Positions 1 to 9,980 of a DNA stretch of 48,584 bases are shown one piece after another. The number at the start of each line of letters is the position of its first letter. The stretch's first letter is position 1. Source of the DNA: a virus. The notes under the pieces are model-generated. The model was not told where the DNA came from. It saw only the letters and a list, made by a program, of their open reading frames with translations, and searched no databases. The stretch covers positions 1 to 48,584 of IMG/VR virus record IMGVR_UViG_3300047551_001195; one strand, written 5' to 3'. A program made the position numbers and the translations under genes.

Positions 1-215
1 TTTGAATATTTTTTTAGTATTTCCTCAACCGACTTCAATTGATCAGGTGGAGGCTTTGGTGTCGGCAAAGAACTCGGCGGGGGAGTGGCGGGGGCGGCTG
101 TTTTCGGCGCACCATCACTGGGCGGGGCTACTGGTGGAGCGGCCTTAGGTAAAGGTGGTGGTGTGATAGGAGGAGTAGAACTCCCATCGGTTGGTTTTCC
201 CTGTGGATCTGCCAT
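1..215 (-). CDS. Proline-rich virion/tail protein, N-terminal part (runs off the window)
   Basis: Open frame starting at the ATG at 215 and continuing past the left edge; 71 complete codons are visible. The start is set by an AAGGGG ribosome site just upstream. The first ~55 residues are almost all Pro, Ala, Ser, Thr and Gly (for example TPPITPPPLPKAAPPVAPP), then turn into charged helix (SVEEILKKYS). The proline-rich part looks like a flexible linker or virion tether. It lies directly downstream of gp26/gp51, where T4-type phages carry hub and tail genes, so a hub or tape-measure-type protein is possible. No family can be assigned from the visible part. Confidence 0.7.
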   Translation of the reverse strand, partial: MADPQGKPTDGSSTPPITPPPLPKAAPPVAPPSDGAPKTAAPATPPPSSLPTPKPPPDQLKSVEEILKKYS

Positions 216-225
216 CTATATCCCC

Positions 226-417
226 TTAAAATCCTCCATCACCATTTTCCATTCTCTGCTTTTCTTCCTTCAAATGCTGAATCAACATTGTTATATAAAT
301 TTGACGCTCCCACGGAACCATATTTTCAATATCAGTCAACGAATATTTGTGATGTTGCATCATCGCAAAGTTGGTTTCAAAATGATTCATGAGCGAATCG
401 TGGGAGGTCGATATCAG
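226..417 (-). CDS. 51: gp51-like baseplate hub assembly factor, probably made by -1 frameshift from gp26
   Basis: Frame in -1 relative to the end of gp26, giving ~63 residues with the signature WERQIYITMLIQHLKEEK followed by a charged tail. This short helical pattern is typical of gp51-type hub assembly catalysts and of the second half of tail-assembly chaperones. The frame is open from 453. The only ATG near the front is at 390, preceded by CTCCCACGATTCGCTC, which has no Shine-Dalgarno sequence, and there is no GTG or TTG upstream in the open frame. The simplest reading is that it is translated as the C-terminal extension of gp26 through the slippery run at 423-417. The stop TAA at 228-226 is 10 nt before the next gene. 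Confidence 0.65.
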   Translation of the reverse strand: MISTSHDSLMNHFETNFAMMQHHKYSLTDIENMVPWERQIYITMLIQHLKEEKQRMENGDGGF

Positions 418-1124
418 AAAAAATCTCGCATCCCCTCCAATGTAATCTTCTCTTTATTTTGACACCTCTTACACTCAAAATCAACTTCTTTCTTGAGTTT
501 TGGCATTGTTTCAATAAACCCCATCATTTTTTTCAACTGATCCTGACTGAGGTGAAGTATGAAATTTTCGATCTCTTCTTTCTCGATGTCTTTGGCATGA
601 AAAACTTCATTTTTCGTATATACCGTTTGGATACACGATGCCAGAACACTGGTTGCTTTGTCAAGTTCAGGTCTGTCTTCGTTGAAAATTTCCATGTCTT
701 TCAATCTTGGATATCCCATCTCAACAATCACATCGGGAGATATCACGATTTTTTTCTTGTGTTCCTCGTTTGTAACTGGCTCGATTTCACTCAAATCAAT
801 ATTGATTTCACTTGAAACACCGCATTTTCCACACTTTATCGAGGGCGTTGCTTTTTCTCCGACCGACTTACTTCTAATTTTCAGAAATAAGTATTCTAAG
901 TCTATTACGGGAGCATTATTAGATTCAAATTCTCCGAATGTGCATGAACTTACTACCTGATTAATAGCGTTATAAATTTCATTCTCATTCTTTGACTCTG
1001 ACGCTATAAGAAGAAGTTTCTCCTCTTTCACCAAGAAAGGTCTATAATGTATTCTCCTTCCAGACGAGGGCAAAGTCAGTTCGTATTTTTGAATTCCTAA
1101 TGCTGATACTAAAGATGACATCAT
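414..1124 (-). CDS. 26: gp26-like baseplate hub subunit
   Basis: 236 residues, close to T4 gp26 (208). The N-terminus (LPSSGRRIHYRPFLVKEEK) and the paired CxxC knuckles at residues 98-101 (CGKC) and 218-221 (CKRC) match the T4 gp26 baseplate family; the four cysteines probably bind zinc. The role is hub assembly in the baseplate. Two ATGs stand in tandem at 1124 and 1121. The GGAG site is 3 nt before the first and 6 nt before the second, so 1121 may be the real start. A T4-late-like ATAAATA lies 20 nt upstream. The gene ends at a probable frameshift site leading into gp51. Confidence 0.8.
   Translation of the reverse strand: MMSSLVSALGIQKYELTLPSSGRRIHYRPFLVKEEKLLLIASESKNENEIYNAINQVVSSCTFGEFESNNAPVIDLEYLFLKIRSKSVGEKATPSIKCGKCGVSSEINIDLSEIEPVTNEEHKKKIVISPDVIVEMGYPRLKDMEIFNEDRPELDKATSVLASCIQTVYTKNEVFHAKDIEKEEIENFILHLSQDQLKKMMGFIETMPKLKKEVDFECKRCQNKEKITLEGMRDFF
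417..423 (-). promoter_or_regulatory. Candidate -1 ribosomal frameshift site (T TTT TTC)
   Basis: The last gp26 codons read GAT TTT TTC TGA. The heptamer T TTT TTC fits the X XXY YYZ slippery rule and abuts the gp26 stop. Slipping back one base continues as TTT TTT CTG ATA into the gp51 frame. I saw no obvious strong hairpin downstream; the adjacent stop codon could itself supply the pause. Confidence 0.6.
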
Positions 1125-1144: not shown

Positions 1145-1151
1145 TATTTAT
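1145..1151 (-). promoter_or_regulatory. T4-type late promoter element for gp26
   Basis: ATAAATA on the minus strand, overlapping the TAA stop of the preceding gene and followed 20 nt later by the gp26 start, with an AGGAG ribosome site between. Confidence 0.55.
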
Positions 1152-1987
1152 CCGATAATACCAAAACCCTGTAATTGACTTGCGAAAGCCATTCCCATTC
1201 TAACAATCTTCGCTTCGACATCAGCCTTGAGTCTCTGATTTTGATAACTATCCCATTCTCTCTGAGCCTCCGCAACAGACTTCTCACGAAGTTCTCTTTG
1301 GAAGGGACCTTCGGGATTTGGCGACTTGATTGGATCAACTGCGGGTTTCGTATCGTAAAAGTTTTTATATCTCAACGCTTCACGAAACATAAAGTCCACT
1401 TTGACTGTGGTTGGCTTTTGTGACTGGTCATAATTCAGACTACCTCCGTTTATCGTTAGATTGTACGGATAAACTTCGGTCAACTTTATTCCAGGTATTG
1501 AGAATGTGGGGTTGTTAATAAGTGCGAAGACCTCTTCAATACTCTTGATCGTGCTTGGCAACATAATAATGTCAATCTCTGACTGCTTCGTATAACTATC
1601 ATAGAAATCAGCCAATCGAGTTTCTTCCGAAACAATTCCACCCATCCACTGTTGAAACAACTCCTTCTCAAAATAATCACCAAGGCAATAAAACTCAAAG
1701 GATGCACCAGCATCATTGAAAGAGTTTATACCATATGGAATTTTTCTTTCGGGTGAAGTAACGCCGAAATCGTGTGTATAGAACGCCTTTTGAGGCAGGG
1801 TGGCATTGAAACAAGTGGTCAGAAGTCTTGACTGGATTGTAGTCAAACCCGCATATCCCTTACCACCGAATCTCAAATAATTTCTTGAAACATAGGAATT
1901 CGGTTTGATGAGGGCCACCCATCGGTTTGGCTTGGCATAGCCAGACTGACGCATATTGGCATATATTGAATCTATGAAATTTGCCAT
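1148..1987 (-). CDS. Tail-tube-fold baseplate protein (gp54/gp48-like)
   Basis: 279 residues. The central region (RLLTTCFNATLPQKAF, then strands around residues 90-110, YPYNLTINGGSLNYDQ, and TTVKVDFMFREA near 200) follows the beta-rich layout of T4-type tail-tube and tube-initiator proteins, in which strand-turn repeats end in an 'F.V.F.YR' type strand. The C-terminus is helical and charged. Its position just before gp26/gp51 fits a baseplate cap or tube-initiator role, like T4 gp48 or gp54. Which of the two cannot be settled by eye. It starts 2 nt after the stop of the upstream gene. Confidence 0.6.
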   Translation of the reverse strand: MANFIDSIYANMRQSGYAKPNRWVALIKPNSYVSRNYLRFGGKGYAGLTTIQSRLLTTCFNATLPQKAFYTHDFGVTSPERKIPYGINSFNDAGASFEFYCLGDYFEKELFQQWMGGIVSEETRLADFYDSYTKQSEIDIIMLPSTIKSIEEVFALINNPTFSIPGIKLTEVYPYNLTINGGSLNYDQSQKPTTVKVDFMFREALRYKNFYDTKPAVDPIKSPNPEGPFQRELREKSVAEAQREWDSYQNQRLKADVEAKIVRMGMAFASQLQGFGIIG

Positions 1988-3639: not shown

Positions 3640-4116
3640 TCAGATCGGGATAATCCTCGCCGCAAGATTTGTGGCTCCATCCATGGTTCTCTTGGAAGCA
3701 ACAGCAAGTCCAAGTTTATGGCCCAACTTTCGCTCAATCATATTCTCACGAGTTGTTCCATGTTGAGACCCATCGTTGCCGAAATAACCACCGAAGAGGT
3801 CGAGTTCATAAACTCTTTCACCTTCAACACGAAGGTCATCACCTCTAACAGGAGCAAAACTCAAACCGATGGAGTGAAGCGTGTTCCAGATTTCCTTGAA
3901 AGCCTCATTTGGATTGATGTATGGCTTGGCCGATATAGCACCAAGATAGGTGTTGATTCGGTCAACTTCATTGGGCATCAACTTAGCAAGGTTTTGGTTG
4001 AAATCAAGTGAGTTCTGACCATCCATGGGGCCAACACGACCACGCCAACCGCTGAATGGTGCGGCGTGATGGTATTCCAAAATCGTTTGTCTCAAATTCT
4101 TGAAACTACGCATCAT
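3640..4116 (-). CDS. Hypothetical protein with capsid-targeting-like N-terminus
   Basis: 158 residues from the first ATG; GTG, ATG and ATG codons follow one another at 4119, 4116 and 4113 behind a GGGAG site, and 4113 has the best spacing. The N-terminus MRSFKNLRQTILEYHH has the M-(K/R)-x-F...(I/L)-x-E form of T4 internal-protein leaders. The remainder (ELDLFGGYFGNDGSQ, then NMIERKLGHKLGLAVA) is not a family I recognise. It is flanked by virion genes, so a packaged protein is plausible. Confidence 0.6.
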   Translation of the reverse strand: MMRSFKNLRQTILEYHHAAPFSGWRGRVGPMDGQNSLDFNQNLAKLMPNEVDRINTYLGAISAKPYINPNEAFKEIWNTLHSIGLSFAPVRGDDLRVEGERVYELDLFGGYFGNDGSQHGTTRENMIERKLGHKLGLAVASKRTMDGATNLAARIIPI

Positions 4117-5835: not shown

Positions 5836-6096
5836 TTAGCCACCCTTGGCTTTCTTCCAAAGGTCTTTGTCGGCTGTATGACGAGTCTTACCGCCAACGA
5901 TGAACGAATTCACCCGTGCGAGTGCCCATGCGTGAGAGTTCGCACCTGGTCTGTGGCCGCCCTTCCAAGCCCCCATACCCCTGTCATAAACTTGTTTCAG
6001 AATACGATAGGAAATGCCGCTCTTGGCCGACTTCTTTTTCAGAGCCTCAATCTGGGCTTCTTTTATATTTAGACGCAAGTCTTTGAATGGTTTCAT
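5836..6096 (-). CDS. DUF5824-like small phage protein with capsid-targeting-like leader
   Basis: 86 residues. The core SYRILKQVYDRGMGAWKGGHRPG and HAWALARVNSFIVGGKTR is the DUF5824 pattern that is widespread in phages, sometimes as a free protein and sometimes as a module of larger proteins; its function is unknown. The N-terminus MKPFKDLRLNIKEAQ fits a T4 internal-protein leader with cleavage after I-K-E. The start overlaps the end of the 1294-residue gene (TAATG), so the two are probably translationally coupled. Confidence 0.7.
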   Translation of the reverse strand: MKPFKDLRLNIKEAQIEALKKKSAKSGISYRILKQVYDRGMGAWKGGHRPGANSHAWALARVNSFIVGGKTRHTADKDLWKKAKGG

Positions 6097-9000
6097 TACT
6101 TTTTCTCTGGGTCATTGCCCCAAATCTTCAGGGCAAGTAACTTACGGGTCGGCTTTCCATCGGGTTCACGCAGTTTGCCCTTGGCTCCTGACATACGATT
6201 GATGAAGTTGATTTGACGCTTTGCCCACTCCCAATCGTTATCGGTCCAAGTCTCTTTCTTACGCTTGAGCATACGGACGATGGCTCGGGCGGAGTCACGG
6301 CCAGATTTAATCTTACCGCCTTCCGAACCCGCCTTGCCCGCCTCCTTACGACTCAATCCCGCCTCTTCGCCCTCTTCGGAGTCAATGAAGTCAGAGAGTT
6401 CTTTGGGGGACATATTGACGAGTTTAGACCACTCCTTGTAGATAGCGTCCTTCTCTTCTTCGGCCACTTCGTTGATTCTGCCTCGTTCACCTGGCGTGTC
6501 GTGCTTGTAAGTCTTGACAATCTTGTCAGTCCCGACAGGCAACGGACCTCTTGGTCCCTTGGCAGTCCAATCCCATGCGCCTTCTATGACAATCTCTCTG
6601 TAGATTTTGTCAATCGCAGACTCAACCATATCGCCCTCAGGCTCTACGGAATCGTTGTGCATCTTCCATGCGGTGGCATAGAACACTTCCTTCCAACGGC
6701 TTCCATATCGCTTCTGAAACTCTTTCTTGATTTTCTCTTTCTTGGAGAAGCGACGAGCGGGGCCTGCGGGCGGGCTGACCTCTGTCATGAGATACTCCAC
6801 ATCCTCGTCAAGCGTGGTCTGCTCGTTCACATAGTTTTCATAGACCCGTTCCTTCTCCCATTCAACGAACCCACGATAGACCTCTGCGGCCTCGTGATGG
6901 CCCTTGACCTTGGAGATGCGCTCCATCTCAAGAGCCTTGTTGATGCGCTTCTCAAACCCATAGTGTTCAAACCCTTCAATCATGGACAGGGCCGAATCAA
7001 CCTCAAACTGGTTCTTGATGGCCTTCAATGCCCCGCCCTTTTTGGCGAGTTGCTTGAATGCCTGAGTGTACTTGGACGGCTTGGTCTTGATATCCTTCTC
7101 TTTGGGGTCGGTGAACTCCCATGTCTTGGGGTCATCATCGGGGGCATCCTGACGAGCGGCTAACTTCTTCTTGCGAGCCACAGCCGCCGTCTTGGACAAG
7201 CCCTTGACATACTTCTTGGGCATTCCCACCTCTTTGTCTTTGGGGGAACCCTTGGTCTTACCCGTCTTGGTGGTATACTCCTTGCCTTTACCAATATCAG
7301 CCTCAGAGACGGCCTCGGTCTTGCCCAGTTCGCCCTTCTCCTTATCACCGCTGTCACGCTTGATTTTACCACGAGCGGCCAGACGAGCCGCACCCGTGGA
7401 GCCAACGACTTTCATCGCCTGCCCATAGGTCACATCGGTCGTTCCGTGCTTATCTTTAATCTTGTCAAGCAGGGTGTCAAGGTGGCCCTTCATTGCCTTG
7501 CCCTTGAACGCCAAGTCCGCCTCGGCAATACCCTCGCCCTCGGGCGTGTAGTCCATGGAAAGGAACATGGAAAACTTCTGTGCGGCGAGATTCAGTTTGG
7601 CCGCAATCGTGTGTGCGCTCACATCAGCACCCGTGGTTGTGGCGATAGAGTTTGCCACATCCATGAGGGAGTGGAAAACATACTTCTGAACTTGCTTACC
7701 GTATTCGGTCTTCAAGAACTTGTGTACGAATGTTGCGATGATTCCCGAAGCACCCAAAGCGATGGCGAGTTGCGCCATGAACTTGTTTTTGACTTCATCC
7801 GCCTTATTCTTGTATTGTTCGTCGCTGACTTTGCCCCGCATTTTAATCAAGTCTACTACACCGCTCAATACGGTAGGCGATTTGGCAACGGTTCTCATGG
7901 CGTTTACCAGTTCGGCCTTCGCCATCTCGGTCAGGACAGCCTCGGATAACTCTTCTTCCTCTTCTTCATCGCCTTTTCGTTGTGAACCAACTTCGGGTTG
8001 AGGATAGATGGCCTCGGCGGGGTCAACGGTGAAACCCGTCTTGCTGAGGAACTGAAGTCCAAGGAGAACCTTGGTGGACATATGACTACGGTCGCCGATG
8101 GAGAACTTGATGTTTGGAAACTTTTTGCCATGGAACTCGATATCCATCAGCACTACCATACGCTTCTTTTTTCCAATACCACTCTTAACCGTAATACGAC
8201 TGACAATCTTCTTGGTGACTTTCTTTCCGTTCGGAAGAACAAAGGTGGCCGTATGGTCTCCGTTATCCTTGATGTCCGTGGCGTGAATCATGTTGTAGCC
8301 GCTGTTGCCCGTGTCAACTTTGGCCTTGTATTCCACACCGTCGATCTTAACGGTCTCACGGACAGCAAGATTTGAGAACAACTTCCAATGAGCCTTGTTG
8401 GTCAAATAGTCCACGAAGTCCTCAACCAGTTCCTCACCCTTAACATTATCCTTACCCTTGCCATCCTCGTAGTAGCGGTAGTAGATGTTTCCACTTCCTG
8501 GACTGGCGTTCATCTCAATGATGTAAGGCTTGCCGTCATTGATTACATGGTCAATGCCGACATAGTAGCACTTGCTGACCCGTGCGGCTTGCTCCACCAA
8601 CTTGATTTCCTCGTCAGACAGTTGGAACGATCCACCCTTAGAACCACGGGCGATGTTCGTACGGAAATCCTTGGGGGCCTTGTCCCGCTTGGCACAGGCG
8701 AAAATCTTGCCGTTCAGGACGATGCTACGAACATCGTTCTTGAAATCAGGCAGGAACTCCTGAATGATGACCTCGGCCTCGTACTTCCACAGGGTCTGGA
8801 GAACGCTCTTGAGGCTCTCCAAACTCTCAATCTTGGACACGCCGATGCCTTCGGCTCCTGTAAGGGTCTTGACGATGACGGGGAACTTGCCACCGATTTC
8901 CTTGACCGCCGCTTCCACATTTTCCTCGTTGGCGACGAACGCCGTGCGTGGGTGTGGGAGGCCGTGCTTCTTGAGGGCGATGGCTGTCTCCAACTTATTG

Positions 9001-9980
9001 GCACACAGTTCCATACCGCCACGCTCGTTGACCATGAACACGCCGTTGTTCTGGAGGATGGTCATGATGGCGACACCGATATCGCTGTTCATCACGCCAC
9101 CACGAACCACACAGACGGTGTTGGCGGGGTCAATCGTGATGTCACTCTCTTCGCCGTCATAGTTGCGAATCTTAATCTTCTTGGAAGTCACGGCTGAAAG
9201 TTCAACCTGAGCCTTGCTTGTCTTGATGGCATAGAATGTAATGCCCTTCTTCTTACAGATTTCACCCATTTTCTCAACGGTGTCGCTGAGGTCGTTCTGA
9301 GACGAGGTGAGGGCGAGGATGGTCACATCGGGCTTATCTTTAGTTTGCTCAAGGACAAACTCTTCCTTGAGACCCATGCCCTTGCGGACATCGTTGTAGA
9401 GTTGTTTCTTGAGGGTTTTATTTGAGCCAGGCACGCCGAGCGAGAAATTGGCAAAGTCACCGCTAAAAGCCGCCGCTCGCATCTTGGAAGCGGACATACC
9501 TGACACGCCAGATGACGCTTCGTCCCGTGCTTCGCCCGCCACTACAACATTGAATGTATCAAATGAGTATGTGCGCTTGCCTGTTGTATCCTTTTTACCC
9601 TTATACGAACCAATCTTTTGATAGTCAGCAAGGTGGTCATCGCCCGTGATGACGGTGATGTTCTTGTAGCCGAGTTCGCAGAGATAGAGAACGGCATCGT
9701 ACGGATTGATGGCCTTGTTCAGGGGAACATTCGCCTTGGGGAAGAACTTCTTGAGATATGTCACCTTCTGAGTGTGAGTCAGGGGGTTTCTCTTCGGGTC
9801 TTGTGTCTTGGAGACGAACAAGAAATGGTCGGCGTTCTTGGACTTAGCGAGCGAGAGCAACTTGTCAACCACGACACCGTGGCCGATGGTCGGAGGGTTC
9901 ATGCGTCCGAAGGCGAAGACGGCGGACTCCTTGCGAGCCTCTTGAAGTTGCGTGCCGTGTTCCGTGAACTTCCGAATCAT
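6096..9980 (-). CDS. Giant multidomain protein: nucleotidyltransferase + ATP-grasp ligase + retropepsin-like protease + phage DUF modules
   Basis: 1294 residues. Residues 18-205 form a cytidylyltransferase-type domain with the HIGH-like GRMNPPTIGH (25-34) and SGMSASKMR (160-168). Residues ~215-525 form a RimK-like ATP-grasp with K371, metal ligands in IIEMNASPGSG (487-497) and an LPHPRT pre-ATP segment. Residues ~540-655 match RimK-associated retropepsin-like proteases (PF05618 type): KVDTGNSG (D556-T-G) and DRSHMSTKVLLGLQFL (630-645). An acidic linker (672-677) leads to a helical region, a DUF5872-like part (901-970), a KKEFQKRYG..VFYATAWK module (1085-1106) and a C-terminal conserved module (1198-1292). 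The N-terminus has a leader-like L-Q-E at 12-14, and L/I-x-E sites occur near linkers. It starts in an ATGA overlap with the ligase-like gene and is probably packaged. Confidence 0.8.
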   Translation of the reverse strand: MIRKFTEHGTQLQEARKESAVFAFGRMNPPTIGHGVVVDKLLSLAKSKNADHFLFVSKTQDPKRNPLTHTQKVTYLKKFFPKANVPLNKAINPYDAVLYLCELGYKNITVITGDDHLADYQKIGSYKGKKDTTGKRTYSFDTFNVVVAGEARDEASSGVSGMSASKMRAAAFSGDFANFSLGVPGSNKTLKKQLYNDVRKGMGLKEEFVLEQTKDKPDVTILALTSSQNDLSDTVEKMGEICKKKGITFYAIKTSKAQVELSAVTSKKIKIRNYDGEESDITIDPANTVCVVRGGVMNSDIGVAIMTILQNNGVFMVNERGGMELCANKLETAIALKKHGLPHPRTAFVANEENVEAAVKEIGGKFPVIVKTLTGAEGIGVSKIESLESLKSVLQTLWKYEAEVIIQEFLPDFKNDVRSIVLNGKIFACAKRDKAPKDFRTNIARGSKGGSFQLSDEEIKLVEQAARVSKCYYVGIDHVINDGKPYIIEMNASPGSGNIYYRYYEDGKGKDNVKGEELVEDFVDYLTNKAHWKLFSNLAVRETVKIDGVEYKAKVDTGNSGYNMIHATDIKDNGDHTATFVLPNGKKVTKKIVSRITVKSGIGKKKRMVVLMDIEFHGKKFPNIKFSIGDRSHMSTKVLLGLQFLSKTGFTVDPAEAIYPQPEVGSQRKGDEEEEEELSEAVLTEMAKAELVNAMRTVAKSPTVLSGVVDLIKMRGKVSDEQYKNKADEVKNKFMAQLAIALGASGIIATFVHKFLKTEYGKQVQKYVFHSLMDVANSIATTTGADVSAHTIAAKLNLAAQKFSMFLSMDYTPEGEGIAEADLAFKGKAMKGHLDTLLDKIKDKHGTTDVTYGQAMKVVGSTGAARLAARGKIKRDSGDKEKGELGKTEAVSEADIGKGKEYTTKTGKTKGSPKDKEVGMPKKYVKGLSKTAAVARKKKLAARQDAPDDDPKTWEFTDPKEKDIKTKPSKYTQAFKQLAKKGGALKAIKNQFEVDSALSMIEGFEHYGFEKRINKALEMERISKVKGHHEAAEVYRGFVEWEKERVYENYVNEQTTLDEDVEYLMTEVSPPAGPARRFSKKEKIKKEFQKRYGSRWKEVFYATAWKMHNDSVEPEGDMVESAIDKIYREIVIEGAWDWTAKGPRGPLPVGTDKIVKTYKHDTPGERGRINEVAEEEKDAIYKEWSKLVNMSPKELSDFIDSEEGEEAGLSRKEAGKAGSEGGKIKSGRDSARAIVRMLKRKKETWTDNDWEWAKRQINFINRMSGAKGKLREPDGKPTRKLLALKIWGNDPEKK

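Follow-up and report, generated by a model that had tools for sequence, protein, structure and literature searches.

The window, the stretch of 48,584 nucleotides analysed here (positions 1 to 48,584 of IMG/VR record IMGVR_UViG_3300047551_001195), is a fragment of a T4-like phage that carries gene 26 and a gp51 frame close to one of its ends (Table 1). The gene 26 product matches the Pfam family T4_baseplate (PF12322) with an E value of 2.5e-58 (197.8 bits against a curated cut-off of 24.5) and PHROG 150, 'baseplate hub', at 3.9e-59; its start has an anti-SD duplex of -6.1 kcal/mol, and the PF12322 match is the only one in the whole record, itself a fragment. On the minus strand of the window the gene closes with the codons ...GGG ATG CGA GAT TTT TTC TGA, in which the codon phase of T TTT TTC would let both tRNAs shift one base backwards (-1) and pair again. 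The -1 codons after this heptamer are LISTSHDSLMNHFETNFAMMQHHKYSLTDIENMVPWERQIYITMLIQHLKEEKQRMENGDGGF, and the frame reads FF-LISTSHDSLMNHFETNFAMMQHHKYSL... up to the stop ending at 226. It matches PHROG 634, 'baseplate hub assembly catalyst' (gp51), at 6.7e-28; the Pfam matches Stealth_CR2 (0.006) and NBD94 for this frame were below cut-off and were taken as chance. The gp51 frame of the window consists of the C domain alone, 63 codons, with no separate gp26-like N-terminal part. A tube-like gene lies directly upstream of gene 26, and the sequence ends just past gp51, with the tape measure outside the window. Elsewhere, a 1294-aa ORF (6096-9980, minus strand) has cytidyltransferase-like and ribosomal S6 glutaminyl transferase-like regions.

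Table 1. Features of the 26/51 junction and its surroundings in the window
Feature	Coordinates	Strand	Basis
Proline-rich ORF downstream of gp51, truncated by the contig end, with a good ribosome site	3..215	-	
gp51 ORF as conventionally called from its first ATG, without an upstream ribosome site	226..390	-	
-1 frame, 63 codons and stop: gp51, or TAC-C, domain of the predicted gp26-51 fusion	226..417	-	PHROG 634, T4 gp51 match, AF2 helical hairpin
TGA stop of gene 26, directly 3' of the heptamer	414..416	-	
Gene 26, most likely a short tail assembly chaperone (TAC-N, gpG-like), 236 aa	414..1124	-	PF12322, PHROG 150, AF2 model
Slippery heptamer T TTT TTC in X XXY YYZ phase	417..423	-	Sequence and 94 of 95 relatives
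Shine-Dalgarno-like GGAGGGG, candidate 5' stimulator	432..438	-	Anti-SD duplex
Upstream neighbour, tail-tube-like protein	1148..1987	-	PHROG 3629 (2.8e-8), PHROG 45 (1.3e-6)

The conventional start of gp51, ATG 390, lies 24 bases beyond the gp26 stop and has an anti-SD duplex of +0.1 kcal/mol, compared with mostly -4 to -14 kcal/mol at the other starts in the window. No ATG, GTG or TTG occurs in the -1 frame between the preceding stop and this codon. Further in-frame ATGs of gp51 are found at 363, 360, 321, 288 and 252, the last of them with a moderate upstream site (-5.3) and just the last codons of the domain behind it. The original prediction had set T TTT TTC at a gp26 end of GAT TTT TTC TGA, with a -1 frame running directly into gp51-like sequence and no alternative start for gp51; the heptamer is indeed at that place on the minus strand, the -1 frame continues uninterrupted over 63 residues, and no earlier start exists. 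It had further described 390 as the only ATG, with no ribosome site before it; the missing site stands, while 390 proved to be the first ATG and not the only one.

Junctions were compared in 95 relatives (80 IMG/VR contigs with gp26 relatives, 10 annotated phage records and 5 more), a check that the original prediction had itself put forward. The motif T TTT TTN is present in the same phase, with gp51 at -1 and 0-8 codons before the gp26 stop, in 94 of them, and the phages that bear it have cyanobacteria, SAR11, Vibrio, rhizobia, Stenotrophomonas and Acidovorax as hosts. In most relatives the gp26 stop comes 1, 2, 3 or 8 codons past the heptamer and the -1 frame is open throughout; because the heptamer is kept at each of these distances, we conclude that it is the heptamer, and not the stop, that is held. 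The one relative without a heptamer is Vibrio phage D493 (L088, 3714), in which the gp26 stop shares bases with the ATG that opens the -1 frame (TAATG), an arrangement that suggests reinitiation or a third strategy.

A non-redundant set of 59 gp26 genes, with pairwise identities below 70% and including that of the window, has NNT TTT TTN in every member. Under the codon usage of each gene and with its amino acids fixed, this outcome would have a probability of ~1e-30, a figure that ignores shared ancestry. As a control, we scanned the 443 ORFs of at least 150 aa in the window and the 80 related contigs for X XXY YYZ within the last 9 codons, combined with a -1 frame open for at least 50 codons. 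Among the 81 ORFs that qualify, 80 are gp26. The other is a 273-aa ORF of the window (17701, minus strand); A AAT TTT lies close to its end and its -1 frame stays open over at least 50 codons, probably by chance.

Across the same 59 genes, the residues straight after the slip site are conserved ahead of any start codon, with I, V or L at position 1 followed by L3, S4, H5 and L8 (I/V/L-x-L-S-H-x-x-L). The first 14 codons of the -1 frame hold no ATG in 42 of the 59 and none of ATG, GTG or TTG in 35, and in most relatives the first gp51 ATG is at codon 18 or later, within the conserved motif. If translation began at the first ATG, gp51 of many relatives would be without the opening third of its conserved domain. 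We consider it highly probable, from the sequences, that a -1 programmed ribosomal frameshift at T TTT TTC yields both gp26 and a gp26-51 fusion.

Signals that might assist the slip were sought on both sides of the heptamer. Upstream, GGAGG (438-434) ends 10 bases before it and forms an anti-SD duplex of -10.2 kcal/mol, the strongest among the same-phase windows tested in gene 26. At the same position in the 59 relatives the mean is -6.2, against -5.2 under synonymous recoding, and none of 300 simulations was as strong. The encoded amino acids (Glu/Gln/Lys-Gly) appear to account for most of this motif, with selection at the base level adding to it. By its likeness to dnaX, we infer that GGAGG may stimulate the slip. 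Downstream, no general hairpin or pseudoknot was found, the energies of the 50 bases past the slip site falling at the 49th percentile of same-gene windows. A hairpin 6 bases past the heptamer occurs in 7 of 58 sequences, the window not among them (codon-permuted mean 1.7, maximum 5). We tentatively suggest, as a possibility somewhat short of even, that the 26/51 slip of T4-like phages needs an upstream Shine-Dalgarno-like pause and not a conserved downstream structure, with one subset adding a hairpin. If this is true, a pause-dependent 26/51 slip would be a distinct signal layout among phage tail chaperone frameshifts.

The subset with this hairpin, a 6-bp stem, comprises L003 (~3691-3720), L006, L010, L022, L024, L057 and L068, and its stems show compensatory changes (GCCTCT/AGAGGC, GCCTCG/CGAGGC and GCCTGT/ACAGGC). 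Long-range pairing of the upstream GAGGG with downstream CCCTC/CCTCC was also considered and was rejected, as 1593 of 2000 shuffles paired as well or better and no covariation was seen.

The fusion could instead result from transcriptional slippage along the T6 run, which would put an extra U into the mRNA and leave the ribosome uninvolved. Six or seven T are present in nearly every relative and the predicted protein would be nearly the same, yet the run is not lengthened, its Z position can be A or G, and the upstream GGAGG is a translational signal. The second Phe codon is moreover TTC in 40 of 56 cases, though TTT is commoner elsewhere in the genes (p 2e-9); this preference is confounded, because Z = C also begins an Arg codon that is common in the -1 frame. 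On balance, transcriptional slippage seems very unlikely.

Even less probable, in our judgement, is a separate small gp51 made from ATG 390 or by termination and reinitiation after the gp26 stop. Such a product agrees with public records, where the gp51 frame is either a separate short gene or uncalled, and an ATG overlaps the gp26 stop in Mendera, ValKK3, KVP40, Atu_ph04 and phiM9, D493 having that alone. Against this stand the distance and missing ribosome site of ATG 390, the late first ATG of most relatives, the fact that reinitiation has no need of an in-phase heptamer, and the T4 form of the C domain, which is covalently attached to a gp26-like part. As to the records themselves, the gp51 frame is unannotated in those of S-WAM2, S-CAM1 and metaG-MbCM1 (L095, L096 and L097, ~1501-1680).

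The group of T4 itself offers a natural contrast to the predicted frameshift. Four phages, T4, Citrobacter phage Moon, Salmonella phage UTK0003 and Aeromonas phage 60AhydR15PP, carry gene 51 as an ORF of its own, ~250 codons long and pointing away from gene 26, and all four lack the slippery heptamer at the end of gp26. The gp26 of Moon and UTK0003 has Phe-Phe coded TTC TTT after GAA (GAA TTC TTT), and T4 gp26 also has Phe-Phe; as Gly...Phe-Phe is coded in this group without a T run, the protein does not force the run. The notion that the run simply follows from a conserved Asp/Ser-Phe-Phe end in AT-rich genomes, with the adjacency of the -1 frame being historical, can draw on the near invariance of Phe-Phe, T4 included, and on TTT being the common Phe codon, but is scarcely credible given the ~1e-30 probability over 59 genes, the coding of the same residues in T4 and Moon with no T run, the conservation of the -1 frame ahead of any start, and Mendera and ACP17, which keep GAT TTT TTC although their neighbouring codons are G+C-rich.

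The gp26 family profile matches residues 8-188 of T4-group gp51 (hhalign 96.5%, 7.6e-10), with that of the -1 frame aligning to residues 207-244 of T4 gp51 (hhalign 80.8%, 1.3e-5). Judged by these profiles, T4-group gp51 is a gp26 paralogue joined to the same C-terminal domain, as seen for T4 and Moon. Because both profiles match it, the long form would come from a duplicated gene in the T4 group and from one gene plus a slip in the other groups. Relatives with an independent gp51, which the original prediction had regarded as speaking against a frameshift, thus do occur in these four phages, but in them gp51 is full-length and no heptamer is left, which is in keeping with a switch of strategy and does not refute a slip in the window.

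To examine what the two products might be, gp26 and the -1 domain were folded as separate halves with AlphaFold2 (AF2), using alignments of IMG/VR rows only. The gp26 model has a pLDDT of 93.5, and when it was compared with 868 PDB chains using VIA-align, the top three matches were 3fgx (Z 7.9), 2ob9 (Z 7.6; rmsd 4.4, 87 aligned) and 3klu (Z 6.7), all spanning residues 1-98, with the next row at 3.7. Of these, 2ob9 is the HK97 tail assembly chaperone, and 3fgx and 3klu (YqbN) are relatives of tail assembly chaperones. A Z of 7-8 is middling alone, yet it counts here because the top three form one family well above the rest. Foldseek alone gave a weak match of the gp26 model to 2ob9 (E 1.4), and a PDB sequence search with the gp26 and gp51 profiles returned nothing relevant. 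The best match of the predicted gp26 structure is to the HK97 tail assembly chaperone fold (TAC-N), and the -1 domain is modelled as a helical hairpin (pLDDT 82.5).

Gene order in the relatives is tube-like gene, 26, 51, an optional small ORF and a tape-measure-like gene, so that the slot after gp51 is taken either by the tape measure or by a small ORF ahead of it. PHROG tape measure matches were obtained for HTVC008M (8e-12) and ValKK3 (1.6e-6), and weakly for L001 (2e-3). From the TAC fold of the gp26 model, and from the place of 26/51 just ahead of a tape-measure-like gene in relatives, we conclude that gp26 is most likely the short tail assembly chaperone and the gp26-51 fusion the long one, corresponding to gpG and gpGT of lambda. 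The proposal in the original prediction that the 26/51 pair is the local G/GT equivalent, joined into a gp26-51 fusion, is therefore supported by conservation, fold and the gene order of relatives, and we retain it as a prediction. Genes 26 and 51 would best be labelled here as one frameshifted tail assembly chaperone, where most cyanophage records say 'baseplate hub subunit' and 'hub assembly catalyst'.

We propose that most ribosomes stop at TGA and release gp26 (TAC-N, 236 aa), and that a minority, probably paused by the upstream GGAGG together with the stop codon at the slip site, move back by one base while tRNA-Phe occupies both the P and the A site. The slipped ribosomes would add 63 residues, giving gp26-51 (TAC-NC, ~299 aa). 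By analogy with lambda gpG and gpGT, many copies of gp26 and few of gp26-51 may coat the tape measure protein, the C domain of gp26-51 may recruit tube or baseplate-hub components, and neither protein would be expected to remain in the virion. The heptamer with its phase and conservation, the startless gp51, the homology of both parts to T4 gp51, the TAC fold and the gene order of relatives come directly from computation; we infer the occurrence and frequency of the slip, what GGAGG and the stop contribute to it, and the function in assembly.

Among known systems, E. coli dnaX uses the heptamer A AAA AAG with a Shine-Dalgarno-like element and a strong downstream stem-loop. It shares with the 26/51 junction a Shine-Dalgarno-like element ~10 bases upstream of a homopolymer-type heptamer, and differs in the stem-loop, none being evident at the junction in the window. 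In lambda the slippery heptamer is G GGA AAG. The likeness to gpG/gpGT lies in one mRNA giving a shorter and a longer product through a -1 slip close to where the first gene ends (predicted for the window), in the position ahead of the tape measure gene (seen in relatives of the window phage) and in an N-terminal fold resembling the HK97 chaperone. The heptamer is a different one and the N-terminal protein of the window is longer (236 aa). The lambda parallel has been reviewed (PMC5009743). In T4, gp26 is homologous end to end to gp26 of the window and gp51 residues 207-244 are homologous to the -1 frame, but gp51 is the product of its own gene (249 aa) with a gp26-like N-terminal part, and genes 26 and 51 are divergent.

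Vladimirov, Gautam and Davidson (2022, Virology 566:9-15, doi 10.1016/j.virol.2021.11.003) reportedly found that several T4-like groups retain frameshifting and that T4 uses separate genes 26 and 51. Two later papers cite Vladimirov et al. 2022, one for poly-T slippery sites in T4-like TAC-N genes (PMC12846349) and the other for T4-like phages in which a short gene is accompanied by a longer fusion gene of its own (PMC10885494). The genes are the same as those described here, and the window represents another, metagenomic, member of the T4-like 26/51 chaperones. Both the frameshift device and its occurrence at 26/51 in T4-like phages were known already; given that prior report, the window is therefore a well-supported further example and not a new device. 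What is added here is the GGAGG motif 10 bases upstream of the slip site, together with the finding that no downstream hairpin is generally conserved. Overall, the comparison points to one need with two natural solutions: most T4-like groups would meet it with a slip, the group of T4 itself with a duplicated gene.
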